The notes under the pieces are model-generated. The model ran no database searches and was not told the origin of the DNA. It was given only the letters and a program-made list of their open reading frames with translations. The translations under genes were made by a program, and so were the position numbers. Shown piece by piece: positions 121-28,924 of a stretch of DNA of 64,000 bases; within the stretch, counting starts at the first letter, position 1; each line of letters opens with the position of its first letter. The stretch covers positions 5,651,030 to 5,715,029 of the forward strand of contig AP017308.1 of assembly GCA_001548435.1 (NCBI GenBank). The letters run 5' to 3'. Origin of the DNA: Leptolyngbya sp. NIES-3755 (lineage in GTDB: Bacteria; Cyanobacteriota; Cyanobacteriia; Leptolyngbyales; Leptolyngbyaceae).

Positions 121-1050
121 ATGAAAAAAATTCTCAGCATTGATGGCGGCGGTATTCGGGGAATGATTCCAGCGTTAGTCTTGGCAGAGATCGAAATGTC
201 GATCGGGAAGCCGATTTCAGAGATTTTTGATCTCGTGGCTGGCACTTCAACCGGTGGAATTCTTGCCTTGGGACTCAGCAAAGACAACGGACAAGGCAAT
301 CCCCGATATTCTGCTAAAGAATTAGTCGAACTCTACGAACGCGAAGGAGAAAAGATTTTCCCTAGATCCCTCTGTCGCACTATCACGACAGCGATGGGGA
401 TGATCGACGAAAAATATCCGAGAGAAGGAATCGATTCGGTCTTGAGCAACTATTTTGGCACTGATCCGCTCGGTTCTTGTCTCACCAAAACGCTGATTAC
501 GTCTTATGACATTGAACAGCGGGAACCGTTCTTTTTCAAAAGCTGGAGAGAAGAACATCGATCGATCAAAATGCTGAATGTAGCTCGATCGACTTCTGCG
601 GCTCCGACGTATTTTGAGCCTGTTCAGGTTGAAGTGAGCAATCAAATCAAGACGCTGATTGATGGGGGTGTGTTTATGAATACGCCTTGTGTTTCTGCGT
701 ATGCTGAAGCGTTAAGAATCTTCCCCGATGAGCGAGAATTTCTGGTCGTCTCCTTGGGAACTGGGGAGCAAACTCGGACGATTCGGTATGAGCAGGCGAA
801 AGATTGGGGCACGATCGAGTGGCTGCGTCCGCTGTTAAGCTGCGTGTTCGATGGCGTGTCCGATGCTGCGGATTATCAAATGAAACAGCTTTTGGAAGGG
901 AATTATTATCGATTCCAGACAAAGCTCGAAACGGCGCTCGATGAAATGGATAATGCGACTCCGGAGAATATCGTGGATTTGAAGACCGAGGCAGCAATTT
1001 TATTGAAGCGCGATCGCGAAAATCTGATGCGATTGTGCGAGATTCTGTAA
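121..1050 (+). CDS. Patatin-like phospholipase family protein
   Basis: A 309-residue patatin-fold lipid acyl hydrolase. The family uses a Ser-Asp dyad to remove acyl chains from membrane lipids. The oxyanion-hole glycine run GGGIRG is at residues 9-14, the nucleophile elbow GTSTGG at 41-46 puts the catalytic Ser at 43, and the DGG motif supplies Asp181, so the active site looks complete. There is no signal peptide or membrane segment, which suggests a cytoplasmic enzyme. The length fits stand-alone bacterial patatins. Some bacterial patatins are effectors of anti-phage signalling (CapV type), but no nucleotide cyclase or other defence gene is adjacent, so a housekeeping lipase role is the simpler reading. 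The next gene is convergent. Confidence 0.9.
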   Translation: MKKILSIDGGGIRGMIPALVLAEIEMSIGKPISEIFDLVAGTSTGGILALGLSKDNGQGNPRYSAKELVELYEREGEKIFPRSLCRTITTAMGMIDEKYPREGIDSVLSNYFGTDPLGSCLTKTLITSYDIEQREPFFFKSWREEHRSIKMLNVARSTSAAPTYFEPVQVEVSNQIKTLIDGGVFMNTPCVSAYAEALRIFPDEREFLVVSLGTGEQTRTIRYEQAKDWGTIEWLRPLLSCVFDGVSDAADYQMKQLLEGNYYRFQTKLETALDEMDNATPENIVDLKTEAAILLKRDRENLMRLCEIL

Positions 1051-1060
1051 ATCGAAATGG

Positions 1061-1103
1061 GTAGAGACGCGACGAGGTGTAGAGATTCTAATCGCGTCTC
1101 TAT
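1061..1103. repeat. Short palindromic repeat between convergent genes
   Basis: The arms GTAGAGACGCGA (1061-1072) and TCGCGTCTCTAT (1092-1103) are inverted and pair over 11 bases. The core GAGACGCGA/TCGCGTCTC is a type of interspersed palindrome often seen between cyanobacterial genes. Its position between two convergent genes would also allow it to act as a bidirectional terminator, although there is no clear T-run. Confidence 0.55.
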
Positions 1104-1109
1104 CTAGCT

Positions 1110-2966
1110 TTACAGATAATATCGCACCGTTGTCACCACCCGACTTTTCTTCGTTCGCAACGCCGCTTTCAAAAATAATGTCGTTTGGTTATGTAACAAC
1201 GCTTCCCACCAGCGACGTGGTACAAATGCCGGAATGATCACCGTTGATAAGACTCCTGGGTGCTGAGCTTCATACCGCCCCACGAAGTCCAGAATCGGAG
1301 TGACCACCGATCGATAAGGCGAATCCAAAATCACCAATTCAATATCCGATTCCATTTGATTCCATCGATCGCGGAATTTCTTCAAATCGGTTGTTCCCAC
1401 ATCCACATGCACCGCGACAATTTCATCGGCAATACTCCGTGCATAATCTAACGCTTCAATAGTTCCGCGATGCAATTGTCCAACAATCACGATCGCTGGA
1501 TGTGTCACGACTTCTCCCCGCGCTCTGGGAATATGACTCCGAGGCGGCAAATTCTGAATCGTTAATCGATCGGCAACGTGTTGATAATGCCGTCGAATCG
1601 CGATAAACAATGTCACGACTAATGGCACTGTGAACACGACGACCCAAGCACCGAGCGCGAATTTTGTCCAAATCACCACCGCAAGCACGATCGTCGTTGC
1701 GATTGTACCCAGTCCATTCAAAAGAGCACTTGCTCTCCAGCCTCGCTCTTTGCCCTTGAACCAATGCACGACCATTCCAGCTTGCGACAGTGTGAATGAA
1801 GTGAATACCCCAACCGCATACAGAGGAATGATTGCTGTGGTATTGCCTTTGAACACGACAAGTAGAATCGCAGCGCAAATACTTAAGAGCAGGATGCCGT
1901 TCGAGTAAACTAATCGATCGCCTAACAGTGCCAACTGTCTCGGCAAGAATCCATCTCGCGCTAAGAAATAGCACAGTCTAGGAAAATCTGCATAGCTCGT
2001 ATTGGCTGCTAACAACAGAATCGTTGGAGTTGCAAACAATATCAGAAAATAGTACAGGAAGCTACCACCGCCAAAGATTTGCCGACTCAGAATTGATAAC
2101 ACGGTTTCTGCATCGGTTGGAATCACGCGGTACACCTGAGACAGATAGGTAATTCCCAGAAACATAATGCCAAGAATCAAGCCCAGAAAGAGCAGTGTTT
2201 GTCGAGCGTTTTTCCATTCTGGCGGTCGAAATGCTAAGACTCCATCTGAGATCGCTTCAACCCCGGTGAGTGCCGTACAGCCTGCTGCGAATGCTCTCAA
2301 AACTAGAAAAATTCCTAACTGCTCACTGACTTTCGGCAACACCTCACTTGGAAATGGTGCAGTCACCGCAGTCCCAGTCACTTGCTGAAACAATCCCATC
2401 CCGACTAGCAAAAAGATACTCAGAATAAAGGCATACGTCGGGACCATGAAGATTTTTCCCGATTCCTTTACACCGCGTAAATTTGCGATCATCAACAAAA
2501 ATACAAACACTAAACACAATTCCACGGTCAACGGGCGCAACACTGGAACAGCGGACACTAAGTTATCAATTCCAGCAGAAACACTCACCGCAACGGTGAG
2601 AATGTAATCAATCATGAGAGATGCACCCGCGATCAATCCAGGTAATAATCCTAAATTGCCACGTGCCACGATGTAAGAACCGCCACCGTTGGGATACGCA
2701 CGAATGGTTTGGCGATACGACAGAATCACAATCGCTAATAGTAGAATAATCGCGATCGCAATCGGTAATGACCACCCCAATATATTCGCCCCAGTTCCGG
2801 CTGCAATTAACACAATCAGTGTTTCTTGAGTCGCATAGGCAACGGAAGAAAGCGCATCTGAAGAGAGAACCGCTAAAGCAGCGGCTTTGGTTAACCGCTC
2901 CTCGGCATGAGCACTCGTGGGTAACGTTTTACCCAACAGCGCCCGTTTAACTTGAGAAAGACTCAT
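1110..2966 (-). CDS. APC-superfamily permease, KimA/YdaO-like (probable K+ or amino acid transporter)
   Basis: A 618-residue inner-membrane transporter with about 12 hydrophobic helices, starting near residue 45, followed by a roughly 150-residue cytoplasmic tail. The N-terminal LSSDALSSVAYATQE stretch and the overall length match the KimA (YdaO) branch of the APC superfamily, whose characterised Bacillus member imports potassium. The substrate here is inferred. The C-terminal region (HPAIVIVGQLHRGTIEALDYARS onward) resembles the USP-like cytoplasmic domain of that branch. AGGATAATAC precedes the ATG and is a good ribosome site. The leader (2967-3151) was checked for a ydaO-type c-di-AMP riboswitch and none was recognised. 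Amino acid permease is the usual automatic annotation. Confidence 0.85.
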   Translation of the reverse strand: MSLSQVKRALLGKTLPTSAHAEERLTKAAALAVLSSDALSSVAYATQETLIVLIAAGTGANILGWSLPIAIAIILLLAIVILSYRQTIRAYPNGGGSYIVARGNLGLLPGLIAGASLMIDYILTVAVSVSAGIDNLVSAVPVLRPLTVELCLVFVFLLMIANLRGVKESGKIFMVPTYAFILSIFLLVGMGLFQQVTGTAVTAPFPSEVLPKVSEQLGIFLVLRAFAAGCTALTGVEAISDGVLAFRPPEWKNARQTLLFLGLILGIMFLGITYLSQVYRVIPTDAETVLSILSRQIFGGGSFLYYFLILFATPTILLLAANTSYADFPRLCYFLARDGFLPRQLALLGDRLVYSNGILLLSICAAILLVVFKGNTTAIIPLYAVGVFTSFTLSQAGMVVHWFKGKERGWRASALLNGLGTIATTIVLAVVIWTKFALGAWVVVFTVPLVVTLFIAIRRHYQHVADRLTIQNLPPRSHIPRARGEVVTHPAIVIVGQLHRGTIEALDYARSIADEIVAVHVDVGTTDLKKFRDRWNQMESDIELVILDSPYRSVVTPILDFVGRYEAQHPGVLSTVIIPAFVPRRWWEALLHNQTTLFLKAALRTKKSRVVTTVRYYL

Positions 2967-3151
2967 GTATTATCCTAGAACGAGAATAAATGCAGCGAAA
3001 TCTGTTGGTCTAACTCCTCAATGTCAGCCACACAAAATCAGGTGAAGAAGTCTGATGTGAAGCGCATAAAACATCTACCCAAGGCAGACGTTTCTATTTG
3101 AGAAGTTTAGTACGTTATCCGTTGTTTATAAAGAAAGTTTAGGTTGTTTTT

Positions 3152-3757
3152 ATGACTTCATGGCGCGATCGATTAAATCAATTCACGGGCAAAACTCGCT
3201 TCGCCGTTTGTCGCATTTTTATTCACTTAGCAGGCGATGAAGTCGCTCCGCTGCTCGGTGTCTTAAATCGGGCAGGAAGAGACGCGATCGAGTCGGATGG
3301 TGATCTTCAAACTTTGGGCGAAGGATTAGTCGAAGTTTGTCAAAGTTTGCTGCAATATCAAACTTATTGGCGATCGGCAGCGAATGAGGGAGATGTGGTT
3401 TGGGATGAAGGGGAAGCGGGCGATTATGTGAATGAATTATTTACCGATTCTGCTCAGCGGTACTTGAGTGCTCCGGAATTAGAAACCAGTACGGGAAGCC
3501 CTAATGAAGAATTGACGTTACCCGTTACCCAGAACCTGATTGTAATGATTACGATCGCAGCAGAAGGAGAGGTTCCTGAGCTTGAAACAGATTTAGCTGA
3601 TCTCAGAGCGCTACAGAATGGGCTGAAAGCCATCATTAACTTGCAGTACCAAGAGCGATTAAGAGCCATCCAAGTTCACTTTTCTCCTTCCCGTCTGGGC
3701 GACGAACTCAATTCCGATCAGTTGTTGGAGTTTTATCCGGAACTGATCCCTCTCTAG
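3152..3757 (+). CDS. DUF1517-like soluble cyanobacterial protein
   Basis: A 201-residue protein with no signal or membrane segment. The C-terminal half contains LIVMITIAAEGEVPELETDL and VHFSPSRLGDELNSDQLLE, a pattern remembered from DUF1517-type proteins of cyanobacteria and plastids, which have no established biochemical function. The N-terminal half (AVCRIFIHLAGDEVAPLLG) is amphipathic. It is divergent from the KimA-like gene, and a lipoprotein gene follows 75 bases downstream on the same strand. The family assignment comes from memory of the sequence pattern. Confidence 0.65.
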   Translation: MTSWRDRLNQFTGKTRFAVCRIFIHLAGDEVAPLLGVLNRAGRDAIESDGDLQTLGEGLVEVCQSLLQYQTYWRSAANEGDVVWDEGEAGDYVNELFTDSAQRYLSAPELETSTGSPNEELTLPVTQNLIVMITIAAEGEVPELETDLADLRALQNGLKAIINLQYQERLRAIQVHFSPSRLGDELNSDQLLEFYPELIPL

Positions 3758-3832
3758 AAATATGCGGTGTTCTCTCGTTAGGATGCTGGATAGTGTAAGA
3801 AAAGACTCTAGAACGGAATAAGGAAACGCGCC

Positions 3833-4723
3833 ATGTTCTCTATCAAACTTGCTCGATCGATAATGCGAAAATTTCTTGCTCTCTCTATGTCGGTTGCGCT
3901 CTGCTGGACGGCTGTCGGATGCAGTAGTTCTTCTCTGGGTGATCCGGCTCGGACTCAAACGAATCGCCCCGCGACTGAGGCACGTCAAAATCAGTCTTTG
4001 CCCAATGGACAGTTCTCGGTGCAGCAAGCCACATTTGATGATGGCACTGGGGAATACACGGTTTTGTTAAGAGATACGCCTGCGGGAGTGAATTCGTCAT
4101 TTAGAACTGAGAATTTGCCCTTGGCACAATTGACCCCGGATGAAGTAAAAGCGGGTCAGAAAGCATATCTTAAGTCTGAGAATAATCAAGTTTCGCTGCA
4201 TATTCCTGAAGATTTCAAAATTGAGTACGTTCATAACGTGACTGAGAACGTGACTGATCCTCAGAGCGGAAGAACGGAAACTGTAGTCGTGCGCCAAGAG
4301 CCGAATTTCTGGGCACCGTTTGCGGGCGCGATCGCGGGTCAAGCGATTGGGAGTCTCCTCTTCCGTCCTCAATACTATGTGCCACCGATTTATCGTCCGG
4401 GTGTACCGTTGACTGGATTTGGTGGATACGGTTCTTCTTATGGTCAAGCGGTGGGTCGCTATCAGCAACGTTATCAAGCGCCGCCTGTGGTGGAACGGAA
4501 TCGTCAAGTTTTCCGATCAACAGGCAGACTTGGAACGCCGAATACACGGGTGAGTCGTCCTCGGATTACGAACGATCGACCCACCGGATCGGGCTATGGA
4601 ACGAGCACATTACGTCGATCGAATCGTTCAACTCCGAGCCGCGTAAATCGTCCGGGTGGATTTGGGAGTGGAACGCGATCGGTCCGTCCTCGCTCTTCAT
4701 TCGGCAGCGGTAGACGACGTTAA
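3833..4723 (+). CDS. Putative lipoprotein with glycine-zipper segment and basic RGS-rich tail
   Basis: A 296-residue exported protein of unknown function. A signal peptide with the lipobox TAVGC puts the lipidated Cys near residue 30. After a disordered spacer comes a domain of about 100 residues, then a short hydrophobic glycine-zipper-like segment (WAPFAGAIAGQAIGSLLF). The last 110 residues are rich in Arg, Gly, Ser, Thr and Tyr and probably disordered. An internal ATG at 3863 would give a more typical signal length, but only the ATG at 3833 has an upstream AAGGA-type site. A terminator-like hairpin follows. The basic tail could bind anionic envelope polymers; this is inference. Confidence 0.7.
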   Translation: MFSIKLARSIMRKFLALSMSVALCWTAVGCSSSSLGDPARTQTNRPATEARQNQSLPNGQFSVQQATFDDGTGEYTVLLRDTPAGVNSSFRTENLPLAQLTPDEVKAGQKAYLKSENNQVSLHIPEDFKIEYVHNVTENVTDPQSGRTETVVVRQEPNFWAPFAGAIAGQAIGSLLFRPQYYVPPIYRPGVPLTGFGGYGSSYGQAVGRYQQRYQAPPVVERNRQVFRSTGRLGTPNTRVSRPRITNDRPTGSGYGTSTLRRSNRSTPSRVNRPGGFGSGTRSVRPRSSFGSGRRR

Positions 4724-4742
4724 TCGTTTATAAAAATTAAAA

Positions 4743-4777
4743 TCCCTGGGGTGAGATAACTTGCCGCAGGGTTTTTT
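4743..4777 (+). terminator. Intrinsic terminator after the lipoprotein gene
   Basis: CCCTG (4744-4748) pairs with CAGGG (4767-4771) and is followed at once by TTTTTT. The stem is short but GC-rich, and it lies 20 bases after the stop codon at 4723. Confidence 0.6.
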
Positions 4778-4835
4778 ATGGGTGTGTCAAAATGATTGAT
4801 TAGTTCCCAAGTTTAGTTTCCAATGAGAGAAGCGT

Positions 4836-6359
4836 GTGATTGAGGTAGAAGTCCACCAACAGCTACGAGCCTTTCTGAGAGAGCAGGGCGAATTGTACTG
4901 GTCGCATCATTTGACGATGGCGCGGTTGGTTGCTCGTGCGCTTCGGATCGGTCGGAGTGCGCTGATTCAAACAGGTGCTCCTTCAGATCTTCAGGGACGC
5001 TATCGATTGAGCTATCTTGTGCCGATTTTGATGTGGCATGAACCTGTGGTTTTGGTTGTGCCTGAAGTGATCCAGCAGCGGCTTCTGAGAGTTGAAATAC
5101 CTCGCTTGCGGCAGTGGATCAATTACCCAAAACCGATTCAAGTCAGCGATCGCTGGATTTCTCCAGATTACAAAGGCATTCTGATTACGACCCCGCAGGC
5201 ATGGTTAAGCGATCGACTCAATCACGAGGGCAGATTTCCCGATGAAATTCCAACCGTGATCGATGGCGTGGACGATCTTGAAGCTTGGACGCGGGATCAA
5301 TTAACGCTAAATCTCGATACGGCGGACTGGGAATCGTTGATGTTGGCTTGTCCCGCTCATGTAGAACTGATTCGTGATACTCGAATACAACTGATTCGCG
5401 CCGTTTTTCAGCATCCCGCTAATCCTTATGAATGCTACTTATTCGAGCAATCTGAACGCGATATTTTAACGGAATTACACCAGCGATTAACCGAATCCTT
5501 ACCATCAAATTGGGCAAAGTTTTTTGAACAATTTAATCAGAACGATCGCTTAACTTGGGTGACGATCGCCCGTCAAGCTGGACAATTTTCACTTTATTGT
5601 GCTCCGGTAGAAGTAGCTTCTTCGCTGGCTCCAATTTGGTCACAGCAACCGACTGTATTAATTGGAGGAGCGCTCGATCTCGAATCGGATGCAACGATTT
5701 ATCGATCGTCGATTGGGCTTGAGCAAGATTTGACCTGTTTGAAATTTGCGCTCGATCGACAAGAAGATCAAATCCAGCTTTATCAGCCTGAAGGCATTCC
5801 GCTCCCAAACACGCCCCAATTTCAACCCGCTTTATTAAGAGAACTGCGATCGCTCCTCAGCCTTTCAACTCAAGGATTTTCCGTCATTCTCGTGGGCGAT
5901 ACTCCGCTCAAATCTCAGGTGGGATCAATTCTGGCAGCGGAGTTCGGCTCTAGAGTTCAAGTTGAGCGAACCTGCTTAGAGGAAAATGGAATTCTCGTAA
6001 CGGGTTGGGAATTTTGGCGAGAGCATCAGAGTGTATTGCCCGCACCGCAGGTATTAGCGATCGCAACGCTGCCCATTCCTTCTCTTGAACATCCTCTCGT
6101 TGCGGGTCGTGTTGCCCACTACAAACAGCAGCGTCAAGACTGGTTTCGGTTGTATCTATTGCCAGAAGCTTTAAGCGAATTGCAACGCGCCGTTTCCCCA
6201 GTGCGAGAAAGTCAGGGAATTGTCGCTCTTTTAGATAGCCGAGTGCTTCATCGAACTTATGGCAGTCAAGTTCTAACCGCACTCAGTCCATTTGCTCGAA
6301 TTAATTACCTGGATGCCACCTTATTCAGCCCAGTAGCCGACGAATCAAACACGATATGA
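4836..6359 (+). CDS. DinG/XPD-like helicase homologue with decayed catalytic motifs
   Basis: A 507-residue protein starting at GTG. The C-terminal 200 residues follow the DinG-type second helicase domain: ILVTGWEFWREHQ, ATLPIPSLEHPLVAGR, LLPEALSELQRAV and GIVALLDSRVLHRTYG occur in the expected order. The ATP-handling motifs are degenerate. The Walker A position reads IQTGAPSDLQGRYRLSYL with no GKT. The DEAH box position reads IDGVDDLE. The QxxGRxxR motif reads QRAVSPVR. No Fe-S cysteine cluster is evident. It is therefore probably not an active helicase, but the open frame of normal length suggests selection for a binding or scaffolding role. The DUF2839 gene follows after 31 bases and may be cotranscribed. 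Confidence 0.75.
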   Translation: MIEVEVHQQLRAFLREQGELYWSHHLTMARLVARALRIGRSALIQTGAPSDLQGRYRLSYLVPILMWHEPVVLVVPEVIQQRLLRVEIPRLRQWINYPKPIQVSDRWISPDYKGILITTPQAWLSDRLNHEGRFPDEIPTVIDGVDDLEAWTRDQLTLNLDTADWESLMLACPAHVELIRDTRIQLIRAVFQHPANPYECYLFEQSERDILTELHQRLTESLPSNWAKFFEQFNQNDRLTWVTIARQAGQFSLYCAPVEVASSLAPIWSQQPTVLIGGALDLESDATIYRSSIGLEQDLTCLKFALDRQEDQIQLYQPEGIPLPNTPQFQPALLRELRSLLSLSTQGFSVILVGDTPLKSQVGSILAAEFGSRVQVERTCLEENGILVTGWEFWREHQSVLPAPQVLAIATLPIPSLEHPLVAGRVAHYKQQRQDWFRLYLLPEALSELQRAVSPVRESQGIVALLDSRVLHRTYGSQVLTALSPFARINYLDATLFSPVADESNTI

Positions 6360-23981: not shown

Positions 23982-26900
23982 TTAAAAGTCGGTATCGTCT
24001 TCCTCGTCTTCCTCGATCGTGTCTTCTAACGGGGCGATGTCAGAAGAGAGGTCGGAAACCTCGATCGTATCGATATCAGCTTCATCATCGACTAAGGAGC
24101 CATTGAAAGCTTCAGCGAGTGTTCTGGCGGCGCGGGTAACTTCGTCTTCATCCCAATCGGGTCGCTTGTAAGCTTCGGGAGTGGGTTCTTCAGGAAATGG
24201 TTCGGGATCGGGAGTGCGATCGCGAATCGGTTCGGGGTCGGGGTCTGAAGGTTCAGCCGTTGGAGTGGGGAGGTTTGTACTGCGCTCCTCGTTCGTTCCG
24301 GTGACTGAGGCAGCAACTAAGCTGAATTTGATTTCTTTTCCAAAGGTTTTACTCAGTGCGGCGACAATGCTTTTCGATCGACTTTGTGCCATCGGTAGAA
24401 GCTTCTGTGGAAAACTGATTTGCGCTGCTTCACCGTCACATGAAACTAAGTTACCGTGTTGTTTAAACAGGGCTTGAGTGCCAAACGGTTGAATATTATT
24501 GATGATTGTCTGCCATAAGCGATCGAGGTCTGTTTCCTCAGTTTGAATGGATTCCTCGATCGGTTCCTCTACAGGTTTTGGTTCTTCTATAGGTGAGCTA
24601 ACGGATTCAGTTTGAGTGACCGCTTCAACGGGTTTGGAAACGGGACGGGAAATCGATCGAGGCGGCTGCTCAATCACAGGTGAAACCGATCGAGTCGGTT
24701 GCTCAACTGGAGGTGCAGAAGTTAACAGTCCCATTAATGTTACTTCTAACCAGAGTCGGGGCTGTGTCGAGTTTTTGAGTTGAATTTCGCTTTCTTTTAG
24801 GCGTTGTTGACCGGAGAGAATTGTTTCGATCGACATTCCTTTGGCAAACTCACAAAGCTGTGTCCAAGTTGGAGATGTGAGTGCAACTAAATCACCTCGA
24901 TCGGGAGCGGTTTTTGCAATAAGTAAATCGCGGTAGAAACTGGCTAGATTTTGCAGAACAATCAAAGGTTCTCGTCCGCGATCCATTAAACGGCGGGTGG
25001 TATCGAGAACGGATTCGGGATGATTTTGTGCGATCGCTTCAATTAATGCCATCAAATCTCGTTCTGGAACTGCACCAACTAAATCCCAAACTCGCTCAGT
25101 GGTAATGTCTCCAGATAAGAGACTAAGTTGATCGAGGAGACTTTCGGCATCGCGAAGTCCGCCTTGGGAAATTTGGGCGATGAGATAGAGGGCATCATCT
25201 GCGATCGGGATTTGTTCTTTCTCGGCGATCATTTTTAGGTGTTGGGTCATATCGTCGATCGGAATCCGGCGGAAGTCGAATCGCTGACAACGAGAGATGA
25301 TTGTCGGTAATACTCTTTGTGGGTCAGTGGTCGCTAGGACGAAAACAACTTGCTCTGGTGGTTCTTCCAAAGTTTTAAGAAGGGCATTGAAGGAGGCAGA
25401 AGTCAGCATGTGGCAATTATGAACACACAAGCCATTTGCTACGAAATTGTGATTGTCTTCGACCTCGATATCGTAGACAAACTCAACCCCATCGGGGCGG
25501 ACAGATTCGACCCTCTCCAAATTTGTACTCCATTGCTGGGCAGGAGAATTGCTGTAGGTCAGTAACCCATTTTCGAGATGTGGCGGCTCCCATCCAAAGA
25601 TAGTAGTAGCGTGTTCCAGTTGCGGCTCGTAGATAAGATTTGCATTGGGTTGGATAGCCAAGCTGAGTAAGCCATTCTGCAAGCAGTTGATTTTCTGGCT
25701 CTGAGAATCCTTCTGTGTGAATTTGAATTTGGGAAGATCCTTGGGGACTAAGGCTGAGTGAACCATCGTCCATGTACCACCAAGCGAGTCCTTCTGGAGT
25801 GATTCTGTGTAGCCATTCTTCCGAGACTCGTTTCTGAGTTCCACTAGATTTGACGATTTGGAAGACATCCACGAGTTCTGGGTGGCAGATGGTGTTACAG
25901 CGATGGGAAATCTTGCCATATCCTCCATTTGCGACTTCTTTAAGTTTAGGTCGCAAGAGTGGGAGCTTTTCAGCTTTGTGCCGCAACCAGTCTTTTTGCG
26001 TTTCTCCGTGAGTCCAGGAAAGTCGTGGATATCGACTGTGAGGGTTGGGATAAGTGATTGCGGCATCTCCCAGGAGTGTGCCATAGATAAGTCCGAGAAC
26101 TTCAGAAGAGAGATGTCCTGATGCAGCGATGTGGCTTTGGGTGCGCGTTTCCCAGAGTCCGTGTTTCTCGAAGTAGGGATGCTGTTTCCAGTAGCTTTGA
26201 ATCGTTTTGATTCCTTTGCCCTTGCGCTGGAGAAAGGCTGGAACTTCGAGTTTCTCGCCGCATCCACAGGCGCAGTCGGGTCGCAGAGGTTCAGCAAGCT
26301 CCAAAAGTGCTTCCAGATTGTAGGGTTTTGCGCCGTAGGTATTGCCGCGAAATTGATGTCCTCGATCGAATCGTCGCAGTCGCCCATCGGTTCCGTATTG
26401 GTAGATGAGGTTGCCGCAACCACAGGCACAGGGGATAGTATTCTCATTCCTTCGCGCACGTCTCTTGCGGGTATCCATCCTGCGTCAGTCCTGATCAAAT
26501 GATTGCCAGTGCAACGGATTACACTGTTTTGTGTTTTGATGCTGAGGATTTCTTTTTGTCCTCGGTTGATCCACCCTGAAATCTTTTTGTATTCCCAAAC
26601 TTGAGTTGTGTCGTTGTAGCTTAGTGCTTCTTCGTTCTGTAGATTTGGATCATCGATTCTGGTGAGTCCATTTCTCGTGAGAACTAGCGTGTCGCCTGTT
26701 AGACACTCATCAATCACATAGACTTTATATCTACATTGTACTGGAGCGAATTGGGAACGCTCTATAAGTTCACGAATGTTATCCACTCCCGTATTACTGG
26801 CAGCGTCAATTTCAATAACATCTAAAGCGTTCCCTTTAGTAATCTCGATACAGGTTTGACAAACACCACAAGGCTTGTCTGTTGGAGCATTTACAGAAAT

Positions 26901-27107
26901 ACAATTGAGCGATTTAGCAAAAATTCGGGCGCTGGAAGTTTTGCCTGTACCGCGTGCGCCTGTGAAGAGATAGGCGGGAGCGATGCGGTTCTGAAGTAGC
27001 GCATTAGAAAGCGTGGTCGCGATCGCAGATTGACCCACAAGCTGTGAGAACGTTTGGGGACGATACTTATGATGAAGAGGAATGTAGGTCACAGGGTGCT
27101 TGTGCAA
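23982..27107 (-). CDS. dnaX: DNA polymerase III subunits gamma/tau with intein
   Basis: The clamp-loader ATPase, 1041 codons of which 430 are an intein, leaving a mature protein of 611. Residues 1-134 hold the Walker A GARGTGKTSSARIF and the four-Cys zinc module (CISV…CGVCQTC). The Walker B motif VYVIDECHML is split by the intein exactly after VIDE. The sensor/arginine region TIISRCQRFDFRR follows. The C-terminal 250 residues are Pro/Glu-rich and very acidic at the end (DTIEEDEEDDTDF). A TTG at 27107 opens the frame; the GTG at 27092 gives the usual start MTYIPLHHKYRP and is probably the true start. Residue numbers here count from 27107. Confidence 0.95.
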   Translation of the reverse strand: MHKHPVTYIPLHHKYRPQTFSQLVGQSAIATTLSNALLQNRIAPAYLFTGARGTGKTSSARIFAKSLNCISVNAPTDKPCGVCQTCIEITKGNALDVIEIDAASNTGVDNIRELIERSQFAPVQCRYKVYVIDECLTGDTLVLTRNGLTRIDDPNLQNEEALSYNDTTQVWEYKKISGWINRGQKEILSIKTQNSVIRCTGNHLIRTDAGWIPARDVREGMRILSPVPVVAATSSTNTEPMGDCDDSIEDINFAAIPTAQNPTIWKHFWSLLNLCDPTAPVDAARNSKFQPFSSARAKESKRFKATGNSIPTSRNTDSGKRAPKATSLHQDISLLKFSDLSMAHSWEMPQSLIPTLTVDIHDFPGLTEKRKKTGCGTKLKSSHSCDLNLKKSQMEDMARFPIAVTPSATQNSWMSSKSSNLVELRNESRKNGYTESLQKDSLGGTWTMVHSALVPKDLPKFKFTQKDSQSQKINCLQNGLLSLAIQPNANLIYEPQLEHATTIFGWEPPHLENGLLTYSNSPAQQWSTNLERVESVRPDGVEFVYDIEVEDNHNFVANGLCVHNCHMLTSASFNALLKTLEEPPEQVVFVLATTDPQRVLPTIISRCQRFDFRRIPIDDMTQHLKMIAEKEQIPIADDALYLIAQISQGGLRDAESLLDQLSLLSGDITTERVWDLVGAVPERDLMALIEAIAQNHPESVLDTTRRLMDRGREPLIVLQNLASFYRDLLIAKTAPDRGDLVALTSPTWTQLCEFAKGMSIETILSGQQRLKESEIQLKNSTQPRLWLEVTLMGLLTSAPPVEQPTRSVSPVIEQPPRSISRPVSKPVEAVTQTESVSSPIEEPKPVEEPIEESIQTEETDLDRLWQTIINNIQPFGTQALFKQHGNLVSCDGEAAQISFPQKLLPMAQSRSKSIVAALSKTFGKEIKFSLVAASVTGTNEERSTNLPTPTAEPSDPDPEPIRDRTPDPEPFPEEPTPEAYKRPDWDEDEVTRAARTLAEAFNGSLVDDEADIDTIEVSDLSSDIAPLEDTIEEDEEDDTDF
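25416..26705 (-). other. DnaX intein, 430 codons
   Basis: Self-splicing protein element in the Walker B motif, residues 135-564 of the precursor. Cys1 begins CLTGDTLVLTRNG (block A), TGNHLIRT is block B with its His, FVYDIEVEDNHNFVAN is block F, and the end VHN followed by Cys+1 is block G. All residues needed for splicing are present. The size equals the 430 residues I recall for the Synechocystis DnaX intein at the same site. The roughly 310 codons between blocks B and F have no endonuclease motif in this frame; their Ser/Lys-rich translation appears to be the shadow of an endonuclease gene in another frame. Confidence 0.95.
25483..26478 (-). CDS. LAGLIDADG homing endonuclease encoded out of frame inside the DnaX intein
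   Basis: A 331-residue protein on the same strand as dnaX but in a different reading frame (offset 629 bases, i.e. two positions out of phase). It has two Cys-rich knuckles (CACGCG at residues 17-22 and 69-74) and two LAGLIDADG helices: LGLIYGTLLGDAA at 128-140 with acidic Asp137, and LAWWYMDDGSLS at 231-242 with Asp237/238. This is a clear endonuclease with both metal-binding acids. The ATG overlaps codons just after intein block B and the stop lies 67 bases before the intein end, directly ahead of block F, so it fills exactly the usual endonuclease slot. A weak AGGA site precedes the ATG; translation might instead use frameshifting. Confidence 0.88.
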   Translation of the reverse strand: MDTRKRRARRNENTIPCACGCGNLIYQYGTDGRLRRFDRGHQFRGNTYGAKPYNLEALLELAEPLRPDCACGCGEKLEVPAFLQRKGKGIKTIQSYWKQHPYFEKHGLWETRTQSHIAASGHLSSEVLGLIYGTLLGDAAITYPNPHSRYPRLSWTHGETQKDWLRHKAEKLPLLRPKLKEVANGGYGKISHRCNTICHPELVDVFQIVKSSGTQKRVSEEWLHRITPEGLAWWYMDDGSLSLSPQGSSQIQIHTEGFSEPENQLLAEWLTQLGYPTQCKSYLRAATGTRYYYLWMGAATSRKWVTDLQQFSCPAMEYKFGEGRICPPRWG

Positions 27108-27148
27108 ATCAACTGATTGATCCTACCAAGCGATCGCGACTTTGGGAT

Positions 27149-28924
27149 TTATTCTGATTTTGGCGTGGGTTTGACTCCGAAAAAGGCTTTGTAGACTTCG
27201 TGAGCGATCGGAACGGCTGAAGTTGCGCCGTATCCACCGTTCTCGACTACGACTGCGATCGCAATTTGGGGATTGTTGGCAGGACCGTAACCGACATACA
27301 GCGAGTTGTCTTCTTGTCCTTGAACTTCTGCGGTTCCTGTTTTTCCAGCGGTGAGCGGGATCGAGCCATCGTTTAGACTGCGGGCGGTTCCTTCTTGGAC
27401 TACGGCAACTAGCCCGTCTTGTAAAACCTTGAGCGCAGAAGGTTCAAAACCCAATGACTCTGGTTGCATGTTTGGCTGGTAGGTTTGACTCGCTAAGAGA
27501 TGCGGTTTGATACGTTTTCCGCCGTTTGCGATCGTCGAGACCATGACTGCCATTTCGAGCGGGGTCATTTGGACCATACCTTGCCCGATTGATGTACTGA
27601 CCGTATCCCCGACGTACCAAGGCTCCTTAAATTGCTGCTCTTTCTGTTTAGGGGTGGGAATCATTCCATGACTGCCCCCATCTAAACCCATTGTAGAAGT
27701 TGTACCCACTCCGAAACGACCTCCCCATTCAGAGATCGCTTCAGGACCGATCGACATGCCAAGCTGGTAGAAGAAGGTGTTACTACTGACCGCGAGGGCT
27801 TCCCGGAAGCCGATCGTGCCGTAGCTGGCATCACCGTGCTCGTGGAAGAACGTTCCACCGATATTCATGGCACTGAAGGTAGGTAGCATCGAAGTGGCAG
27901 AGAATTTACCGGATTTCATCGCTGCCATTGCGGTTACGATTTTGAATGTGCTACCGGGCGGATAGCCTTGTAACGTGCGATTGAGGAAAGGATGGTCTTG
28001 ACTTTGGAGCGCATCCCAAGTTTTCTGGCTGATTTTGCGCGTGAAGATGTTCGGCTCGAACGTGGGACCGCTTGCCATTACCAAAACGGCTCCCGTCTTA
28101 ACATCCAGTGCGACCACTGCCCCTCGACGATTGCCCAGCGCTTTTTCTGCGGCTTGTTGCAGTTTGACATCGAGTGTTACTTGTAGGGGTAAGCCTGCGA
28201 TAGGTTGCTGCACACCGAGCATTTTCAGCTCTTTGCCACCCGCATCGACTTCGATCAATCGATTGCCCCAAGTGCCGCGCAGGATCGAGTCTTGAATGCG
28301 TTCGATTCCCATTTGTCCGACAAGCATTCCATTCGGAAATTCAGGATTGGCTTTGAGGTCTTCTTTGGTGGCTTCTCCGATGTAGCCGAGAACGTGGGCT
28401 GCGAGACTGCCGTAGGGATATTGGCGGGTGGATTCGGCTTGGACTTCTAAACCGCGAATTTGTCCAATTTCATAGAGTGCAGTGTATTTTTTCTCATCAA
28501 GTCCTCGTAAGATCCGCACTGGAGAGACTGATTTGTATTGCACTTCTTCCAGCTTTTTGATGATGTCTTCTTTGGGAATGTCTAAGAGTTCACTGATGCG
28601 TTGTGCTGAAACTTGCCATTGTTCTTTGGTTTGCTCACGCGGGTAGAGATAGACCGATCGAGATAATCGATTGACGACGATCGCTTTTCCTTTGCGATCG
28701 ACAATATTTCCGCGATCGGCGACGATGGAAATTGATCGAATTCGGTTCTGATCCGCGAGTTGGCGATTATGTCTGCCTTCGACGAGTTGGAGATAGGCGA
28801 GACGGAATCCACAGACGCTCATCAAGCCAGCGGCAAGCATGAACAAAATCACAGCCCGGAACGATCGCTGCGATCGCGCTTTACTGACCCAAGAATTGGT
28901 AGATGAGAAAGACGAGTTCGCCAT
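27149..28924 (-). CDS. mrdA: Penicillin-binding protein 2 (elongasome transpeptidase)
   Basis: A 591-residue class B PBP that cross-links peptidoglycan during side-wall growth with RodA. A short cytoplasmic lead and one membrane anchor (AVILFMLAAGLMSVCGFRLA) are followed by the dimerisation domain with DRGNIVDRKGKAI and the transpeptidase domain. The active-site triads are all visible: STFK in PPGSTFKIV, SSN in AVSSNTFF, and KTG in AGKTGTAEVQ. The length and motifs favour PBP2 over FtsI. It lies 41 bases upstream of dnaX in the same direction, so the two could be cotranscribed. Confidence 0.92.
   Translation of the reverse strand: MANSSFSSTNSWVSKARSQRSFRAVILFMLAAGLMSVCGFRLAYLQLVEGRHNRQLADQNRIRSISIVADRGNIVDRKGKAIVVNRLSRSVYLYPREQTKEQWQVSAQRISELLDIPKEDIIKKLEEVQYKSVSPVRILRGLDEKKYTALYEIGQIRGLEVQAESTRQYPYGSLAAHVLGYIGEATKEDLKANPEFPNGMLVGQMGIERIQDSILRGTWGNRLIEVDAGGKELKMLGVQQPIAGLPLQVTLDVKLQQAAEKALGNRRGAVVALDVKTGAVLVMASGPTFEPNIFTRKISQKTWDALQSQDHPFLNRTLQGYPPGSTFKIVTAMAAMKSGKFSATSMLPTFSAMNIGGTFFHEHGDASYGTIGFREALAVSSNTFFYQLGMSIGPEAISEWGGRFGVGTTSTMGLDGGSHGMIPTPKQKEQQFKEPWYVGDTVSTSIGQGMVQMTPLEMAVMVSTIANGGKRIKPHLLASQTYQPNMQPESLGFEPSALKVLQDGLVAVVQEGTARSLNDGSIPLTAGKTGTAEVQGQEDNSLYVGYGPANNPQIAIAVVVENGGYGATSAVPIAHEVYKAFFGVKPTPKSE

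Follow-up and report, generated by a model that had tools for sequence, protein, structure and literature searches.

A cyanobacterial DnaX intein with a predicted LAGLIDADG endonuclease gene nested in its −1 reading frame

Bifunctional inteins of the PI-SceI type carry their LAGLIDADG enzyme as part of the excised intein polypeptide and, to our knowledge, intein biology takes the homing enzyme to be produced within the polypeptide that is spliced out. The available text on the ShiLan domain describes an HNH endonuclease hidden in phage methylases (PMC11855218), and the accessible parts of two papers on the Ssp DnaX intein of Synechocystis PCC 6803 describe a mini-intein of about 150 residues that splices (PMC3443213; PMC3620165). 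Here, we describe the dnaX intein of the cyanobacterium Leptolyngbya sp. NIES-3755, located in a 64 000-nucleotide stretch of contig AP017308.1 (positions 5 651 030–5 715 029; referred to as the window, the numbering of which is used throughout). We consider it very probable that this is a mobile intein built of two overlapping genes. The case rests on two open reading frames (ORFs) that keep a conserved relative phase and are both under selection, on the separate decay of one of them and on signs of horizontal movement.

The dnaX gene (23982–27107, minus strand, as are all features of the locus given below) is one open frame of 1041 codons that includes the intein and encodes the gamma/tau subunit of DNA polymerase III (NF011510, E = 1.1e-237; TIGR02397). 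The 430-residue intein occupies 25416–26705, with junctions VYVIDE/CLTGD and CVHN/CHML. Its product matches TIGR01445 over residues 1–73, TIGR01443 over residues 409–430 and PF14890 with an E value of 2.2e-13, confirming the preliminary description of a 430-codon intein that is open in the dnaX frame and retains blocks A, B, F and G. These blocks, together with a Cys as the first residue, a terminal His-Asn and a Cys at position +1, assign it to the class 1 inteins. The N-terminal splicing part with blocks A and B (26481–26705) lies upstream of the overlap and the C-terminal part with blocks F and G (25416–25481) lies downstream. Between them, a nested gene of 331 codons plus TGA (25483–26478) is read in the −1 frame relative to dnaX. 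It starts at intein nucleotide 227 (0-based), with its ATG inside the GGATGG of the Gly-Trp codons that follow block B and a TGA at the third codon before the ATG in its own frame, and it ends at the TGA at 25485–25483, a few codons short of block F. The 331-residue product matches PF03161 (LAGLIDADG_2) over residues 130–272 (E = 9.5e-20, 71.7 bits against a cut-off of 25), and a profile search with the intein-frame product of the same bases gave no endonuclease match. The ORF calls and the PF03161 match thus agree with the out-of-phase LAGLIDADG protein that had been proposed to start at 26478. Endonuclease and splicing domain are not joined here in one frame and one polypeptide as they are in a canonical bifunctional intein.

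Both the two acidic LAGLIDADG helices and the two Cys-rich knuckles proposed for the 331-residue protein were found in the alignment. The knuckles are of the CxCGCG type, with CACGCG at residues 17–22 (26413–26430) and CACGC at residues 69–73 (26260–26274). The helices are GLIYGTLLGD (26065–26094), which contains Asp138, and GLAWWYMDDG (25762–25791), which contains Asp237 and Asp238; all three aspartates are invariant across 45 relatives. An AlphaFold model computed from the 45-sequence alignment has a mean predicted local distance difference test score (pLDDT) of 86.4 and supersedes an earlier model from nine sequences with a pLDDT of 54.4. Its best matches in the PDB are I-WcaI (E = 3.3e-12) and I-SceI (E = 1.2e-11), and the predicted fold of the nested enzyme is I-SceI-like. 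The family profile, the two acidic helices and the modelled fold place the protein among the LAGLIDADG homing endonucleases.

The full-length set comprises 47 rows with an intein of exactly 1290 nucleotides, three of which are repeated contigs (L041, L056 and L072; L and G numbers are our labels for loci and genomes), and the selection tests were carried out on 32 non-redundant copies that are less than 97% identical. The enzyme ORF spans at least 320 codons in 40 of the 47 rows (37 of 44 without the repeats), and no intein-frame stop was found in 70 dnaX intein rows. The linker core (25530–26387), which codes for endonuclease, contains no intein-frame stops in any of the 32 copies; recoding the enzyme with the codon usage of the exteins gives an expected mean of 11.9 per copy, and permuting the synonymous codons that each copy already uses gives 5.5. 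These stops are missing because codon choice in the enzyme avoids the contexts that would create them. NTA codons for Leu, Ile and Val make up 0 of 846 positions before a purine and 198 of 782 before a pyrimidine (Fisher P = 3e-70), compared with 593 of 1902 and 286 of 1088, respectively, in the exteins. NTG at Leu, Ile and Val residues is likewise absent before A (0/443; exteins 141/729), as is Met before a codon starting with A (0/121; exteins 29/138).

Substitution rates at intein codon positions 1, 2 and 3 are 0.262, 0.159 and 0.511 in the N-terminal splicing part, 0.177, 0.452 and 0.256 in the linker core and 0.089, 0.063 and 0.490 in the C-terminal splicing part. In the two splicing parts, change is thus fastest at intein position 3; within the core it is fastest at intein position 2, equivalent to position 3 of the enzyme, so that the phase switches at both boundaries. 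The ratio of nonsynonymous to synonymous change (pN/pS) is 0.32 in the endonuclease frame and 1.09 in the linker frame. At fourfold-degenerate sites of the enzyme, change amounts to 0.505 for the core, 0.371 for the 5′ overlap (26388–26477), where the splicing domain and the endonuclease are both constrained, and 0.267 for the 3′ overlap; the reference values are 0.615 for the exteins and 0.572 and 0.601 for the splicing parts. For close pairs, the values are 0.274 in the endonuclease core and 0.386 in the exteins. Identity is lowest in the linker (0.416), followed by the enzyme (0.650) and the splicing domain (0.753). One copy with a one-codon extein gap (L044) was left out of the pairwise and fourfold-site comparisons. 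Selection keeps the two frames open, as the preliminary description had required of them. Its statement that about 996 bases code for two proteins holds in full at the two ends of the overlap, which serve two proteins under strong dual constraint; the core serves mostly one, with a ban on stops in the other frame and weak protein-level constraint.

The arrangement recurs in DnaX inteins of other cyanobacteria. A search of 386 cyanobacterial genomes with the enzyme matched 21, and 19 of these matches lie in dnaX, all in phase −1: ten at full length (window included), two with an internal deletion and seven as short end remnants. The remaining two (L018 and L021) hit a distant enzyme that does not lie in dnaX. 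Scanning named genomes by enzyme homology located 51 loci, and every one of them is in dnaX and carries the enzyme, complete or in part, at −1. They come from Nostocaceae, Microcoleaceae, Scytonemataceae, Pseudanabaenaceae, Microcystaceae and others; metagenome assemblies are included, and three loci duplicate other contigs (L002 = L072, L007 = L041 and L008 = L056). A census with the N-terminal part of the intein matched 34 of the 386 genomes, 32 strongly and two weakly (E = 2.2e-7 and 8.5e-7), and 30 of the 34 places were examined. All 30 inteins lie inside dnaX at one common insertion site. Ten are 430 residues long, come from the ten genomes that gave the full-length enzyme matches and carry the −1 enzyme, with the ORF shortened to 323 codons in one; the other 20 are between 129 and 339 residues long. 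No in-frame enzyme was found in these 30 inteins. A PF03161 search of 194 genomes matched seven, two being dnaX cases (G000 and G014) and five being separate ORFs. Three other sampled genomes of the window's family gave no intein match and a search of plasmids gave no match. Two outcomes had been named in advance as arguing against the arrangement, frame errors at both boundaries and absence of the out-of-frame gene from all homologues. Neither was found: none of the relatives examined carries the enzyme in the intein frame of dnaX, and all ten full-length census inteins contain the out-of-frame gene, as do, with the gene whole or as remains, all 51 loci found by homology.

Three individual loci deserve mention in their own right. 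The DnaX inteins of two Laspinema loci (L066 and L067) have 522 residues and a CTG in place of the ATG at nucleotide 227, and the hidden frame of L066 contains additional CACGCG knuckle repeats. A metagenome-assembled genome (L035) shows an apparent frameshift in the dnaX C-extein around 4160–4199.

Trees of the exteins and of the enzyme concur on large groups, and the arrangement is therefore old in cyanobacteria. The earlier suggestion that it may be old and overlooked is thereby partly borne out, and the record of Xanthomonas phage FoX3 (MT161383.1) lacks a gene for the enzyme hidden in it. One supported conflict between the trees concerns Dendronalium (L033), in which the enzyme nests among Nostoc and Desmonostoc rows and the exteins do not. 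The intein of L033 is 92–93% identical to those of three Nostoc or Desmonostoc loci (L047, L007 and L038), compared with 81–82% for the exteins, and third-position identity to the same loci is 0.74–0.79 in the splicing part and 0.58–0.60 in the exteins. The pair L002 and L026 is similar. Among 990 pairs compared, these cases are the most extreme, and 55 pairs lie above our threshold. The pattern in L033 is what a homing event would leave and points to horizontal movement.

Nested enzymes also occur in phage-type sequences. A search of phage records returned three, FoX3 twice and KLEP7. In seven superfamily 2 (SF2) helicases (L075, L078, L079 from FoX3, L113, L116, L118 and L159), an intein at DE/C carries a PF03161 enzyme in the −1 frame. 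PF04851 matches all seven, PF00271 scores above its cut-off in L075, L078, L079 and L159, and PF14890 is above its cut-off in all seven inteins; in L075 the enzyme ATG lies at intein nucleotide 227, as in DnaX. In the FoX3 record, gp40 is labelled `putative DNA helicase', and the hidden endonuclease ORF within it (L079, 1815–2573) has no gene annotation. Enzymes in the +1 frame were found in the terminase GpA cases L119, L120 and L121 (L122 being nearly identical), a further terminase (L130), a DEAD helicase (L128), a protein with PF00270 and PF00271 that we read as RecQ-like (L153) and a helicase ORF with two inteins, the second of which contains the out-of-frame enzyme (L143, 2–5668). The evidence for an intein is weaker in these than in the −1 helicases: PF14890 is above its cut-off of 35.8 bits in L143 alone, L119, L120, L128, L130 and L153 scoring 19.5–30.8 bits; L121 has no PF14890 match at 0.001 and its GpA match is slightly under the cut-off. 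The intein call in the +1 cases other than L143 rests on terminal motifs judged by eye. L133 and L136 resemble the +1 cases, but their host frame closes soon past the enzyme domain, and that of L133 has no Pfam match. The host frame is free of stops across the enzyme domain in all 15 cases tested, which could be by chance in L079, L116 and L118 (permutation P = 0.09–0.27).

Relatives with the enzyme in the host frame exist as well. Ten of the 17 in-frame cases from the generality scan described below were searched with profiles; at a threshold of 0.001, nine of them show the intein and the enzyme in a single frame and L168 shows no intein match. L125 and phage KLEP7 (L080) are also in-frame, and L123 has an in-frame enzyme and no intein match. 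A phage-type clamp loader (L187, 2838–4961) contains a canonical in-frame LAGLIDADG_2 intein at DE/CHML, the same site as in cyanobacterial DnaX. The enzyme tree joins the DnaX group with the −1 helicase enzymes L113, L116 and L118 (97/92), leaving other −1 rows unresolved, and pairs the +1 enzyme of L130 with the in-frame L142 (97/96); its branches are long, bootstrap is unsettled, and L133 and L153 were dropped by the motif filter. On this tree, the frame state appears to change over time. Elsewhere in the genome of the window, DnaB (with two intein stretches) and an SNF2 helicase contain inteins whose LAGLIDADG_3 domains are in frame, as is usual (coordinates: L221, G000:C1:394000–400500, ORF 1895–5383, minus; L222, G000:C1:3556500–3562500, ORF 745–5202, minus).

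The two overlapping genes would work as follows. Translation of the dnaX frame would give a precursor from which the class 1 intein, judging from its intact blocks, would excise itself and leave DnaX, the middle of the intein frame acting as a tolerated, stop-free spacer. DnaX is essential, and intein-frame stops would be purged because DnaX needs this frame. The homing endonuclease, a predicted two-domain LAGLIDADG_2 enzyme with N-terminal Cys knuckles, would be translated as a separate gene from its own ATG, uncoupling its production from splicing. It would cut intein-free dnaX, and repair would copy the intein in. The endonuclease frame would be free to decay, or to be deleted in multiples of three, with the host unharmed.

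Several other explanations of the locus were weighed against two overlapping genes. An assembly indel near each boundary could displace an endonuclease that truly lies in the intein frame; since the −1 phase is found in all 51 loci from named genomes, metagenome assemblies among them, and in the full-length census inteins, and the phage helicases show the same arrangement, independent genomes refute this reading and its probability is negligible. The −1 frame could instead be a fading relic of a once-expressed endonuclease with no current product. Nonsense in the enzyme frame of seven of the 47 full-length rows would fit such a relic, as would ten further rows with internal deletions and six mini-inteins among the 70 dnaX intein rows (excluding L055, which ends with its contig). 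The intact ORFs of most full-length rows, the low pN/pS, the fast third endonuclease positions and the invariant catalytic aspartates argue the other way, and we regard a relic as very unlikely.

A real enzyme could also be made by programmed −1 ribosomal frameshifting on dnaX in place of initiation at its own ATG. The phase is indeed −1, and at least one X XXY YYZ heptamer lies within intein nucleotides 180–330 in 23 of the 32 copies, with AAATTTG at nucleotide 305 in 18. However, the copy in the window has no such heptamer in that region, the common AAATTTG lies inside the enzyme gene and by our reading comes from its Lys-Phe codons, and phage cases with a +1 phase exist; frameshifting seems to us distinctly improbable. 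Lastly, the linker peptide might have a selected function in folding or in the regulation of splicing, in which case the core would code for two functional proteins. The slower change at fourfold sites of the endonuclease core than in the exteins, also among close pairs, is in line with this, but the linker-frame pN/pS near unity, the low identity of the linker relative to the enzyme and the splicing domain, and the persistence of inteins without the core make a functional linker unlikely.

A number of observations weigh against two overlapping genes or against their generality. The enzyme is wholly or partly missing in 20 of the 30 census inteins, the seven full-length rows noted above carry earlier nonsense in its frame, the tree signal is largely vertical, and the copies are related, so that counts are not independent events. 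The ATG at intein nucleotide 227 is present in all 32 copies, yet the same GGA codon is kept in 15 of 16 shortened inteins, all with the enzyme partly or wholly lost, and the census shows the start kept in 18 of 20; conservation of the ATG is weak evidence because shortened inteins that lack an intact enzyme keep this codon too. A Shine–Dalgarno-like 4-mer within 20 nucleotides before the ATG occurs in just 18 of 32 copies (29% in control windows). No Rfam family reached its gathering score in 25000–27200, and 25300–27200 contains one promoter-like and one terminator-like site, both outside the intein and not in excess over shuffled sequences. The generality scan kept 80 of 139 relatives, and a script classified 75 of them, near copies included: 52 are standalone or other, 17 are in-frame and six are out-of-frame, one of which (L167) is the contig of L113.

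With these points in view, we still favor two overlapping genes, and we think it likely that inteins of this kind are widespread and old, with the enzyme read at −1 in the inteins of cyanobacterial DnaX and phage SF2 helicases and at +1 in those of the phage terminases, RecQ-like proteins and other helicases. That both phases occur implies either two origins or a phase change, so that the uncoupling of frames would have arisen or switched phase at least twice; it would set the enzyme dose apart from splicing and let the enzyme die harmlessly. The intein of Synechocystis PCC 6803, which we take to be 430 residues long, is probably included. A search with its N-terminal part found no identical genome among the 386; the best match was G076 (86%), which shares a genus code with G014, a genome with a 430-residue intein and hidden gene, and membership of the PCC 6803 intein is therefore inferred.

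As each product has a start and a stop of its own, the level, timing and decay of the enzyme could be independent of splicing. Overlapping coding extends over roughly one kilobase of a core replication gene and has left a footprint that was measured at the codon level. Inteins scored as endonuclease-free may conceal an enzyme that annotation misses, as in the FoX3 record. Enzymes in either phase, relatives with the enzyme in frame and copies in decay are all available, which makes the evolution of overlap testable in this system.

In the portions of the literature searched, the ShiLan HNH element is the one close precedent for an out-of-frame homing enzyme in an insertion that is open in the host frame. 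A prior report for inteins is possible in two works that the ShiLan conclusions (PMC11855218) cite at their sentence on overlapping frames, Gorbalenya 1998 (`Non-canonical inteins') and Gosselin et al. 2025 (bioRxiv, `Non-Canonical Architecture'). The available text on a group I intron database describes two intron enzymes that overlap by 25 nucleotides (PMC11835236), and that of a phage announcement touches on out-of-frame homing enzymes (PMC12613952); the available text of PMC8899391 and PMC10885494 contributes no further case. The element in the window and ShiLan, as far as the latter's available text goes, are both mobile insertions open in the host frame with an enzyme in another frame from an internal start; ShiLan has an HNH enzyme, no splicing domain and phage methylase hosts, whereas the window has a LAGLIDADG enzyme, splicing blocks and a bacterial dnaX host, and is not of the ShiLan type. 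With the group I intron enzymes I-SceI and I-WcaI, the nested enzyme shares the predicted fold and a separate ORF within a self-removing element; removal would be at the protein level here and not at the RNA level, and the Rfam search gave no sign of a catalytic intron RNA. The Ssp DnaX intein has the same host protein as the intein of the window. PI-SceI-type inteins share with it a HINT domain interrupted by LAGLIDADG-coding DNA, a conserved host motif as the insertion site and decay to mini-inteins; it differs from them in that its enzyme is encoded apart from the intein polypeptide, by an overlapping ORF that has a start and a stop codon of its own.
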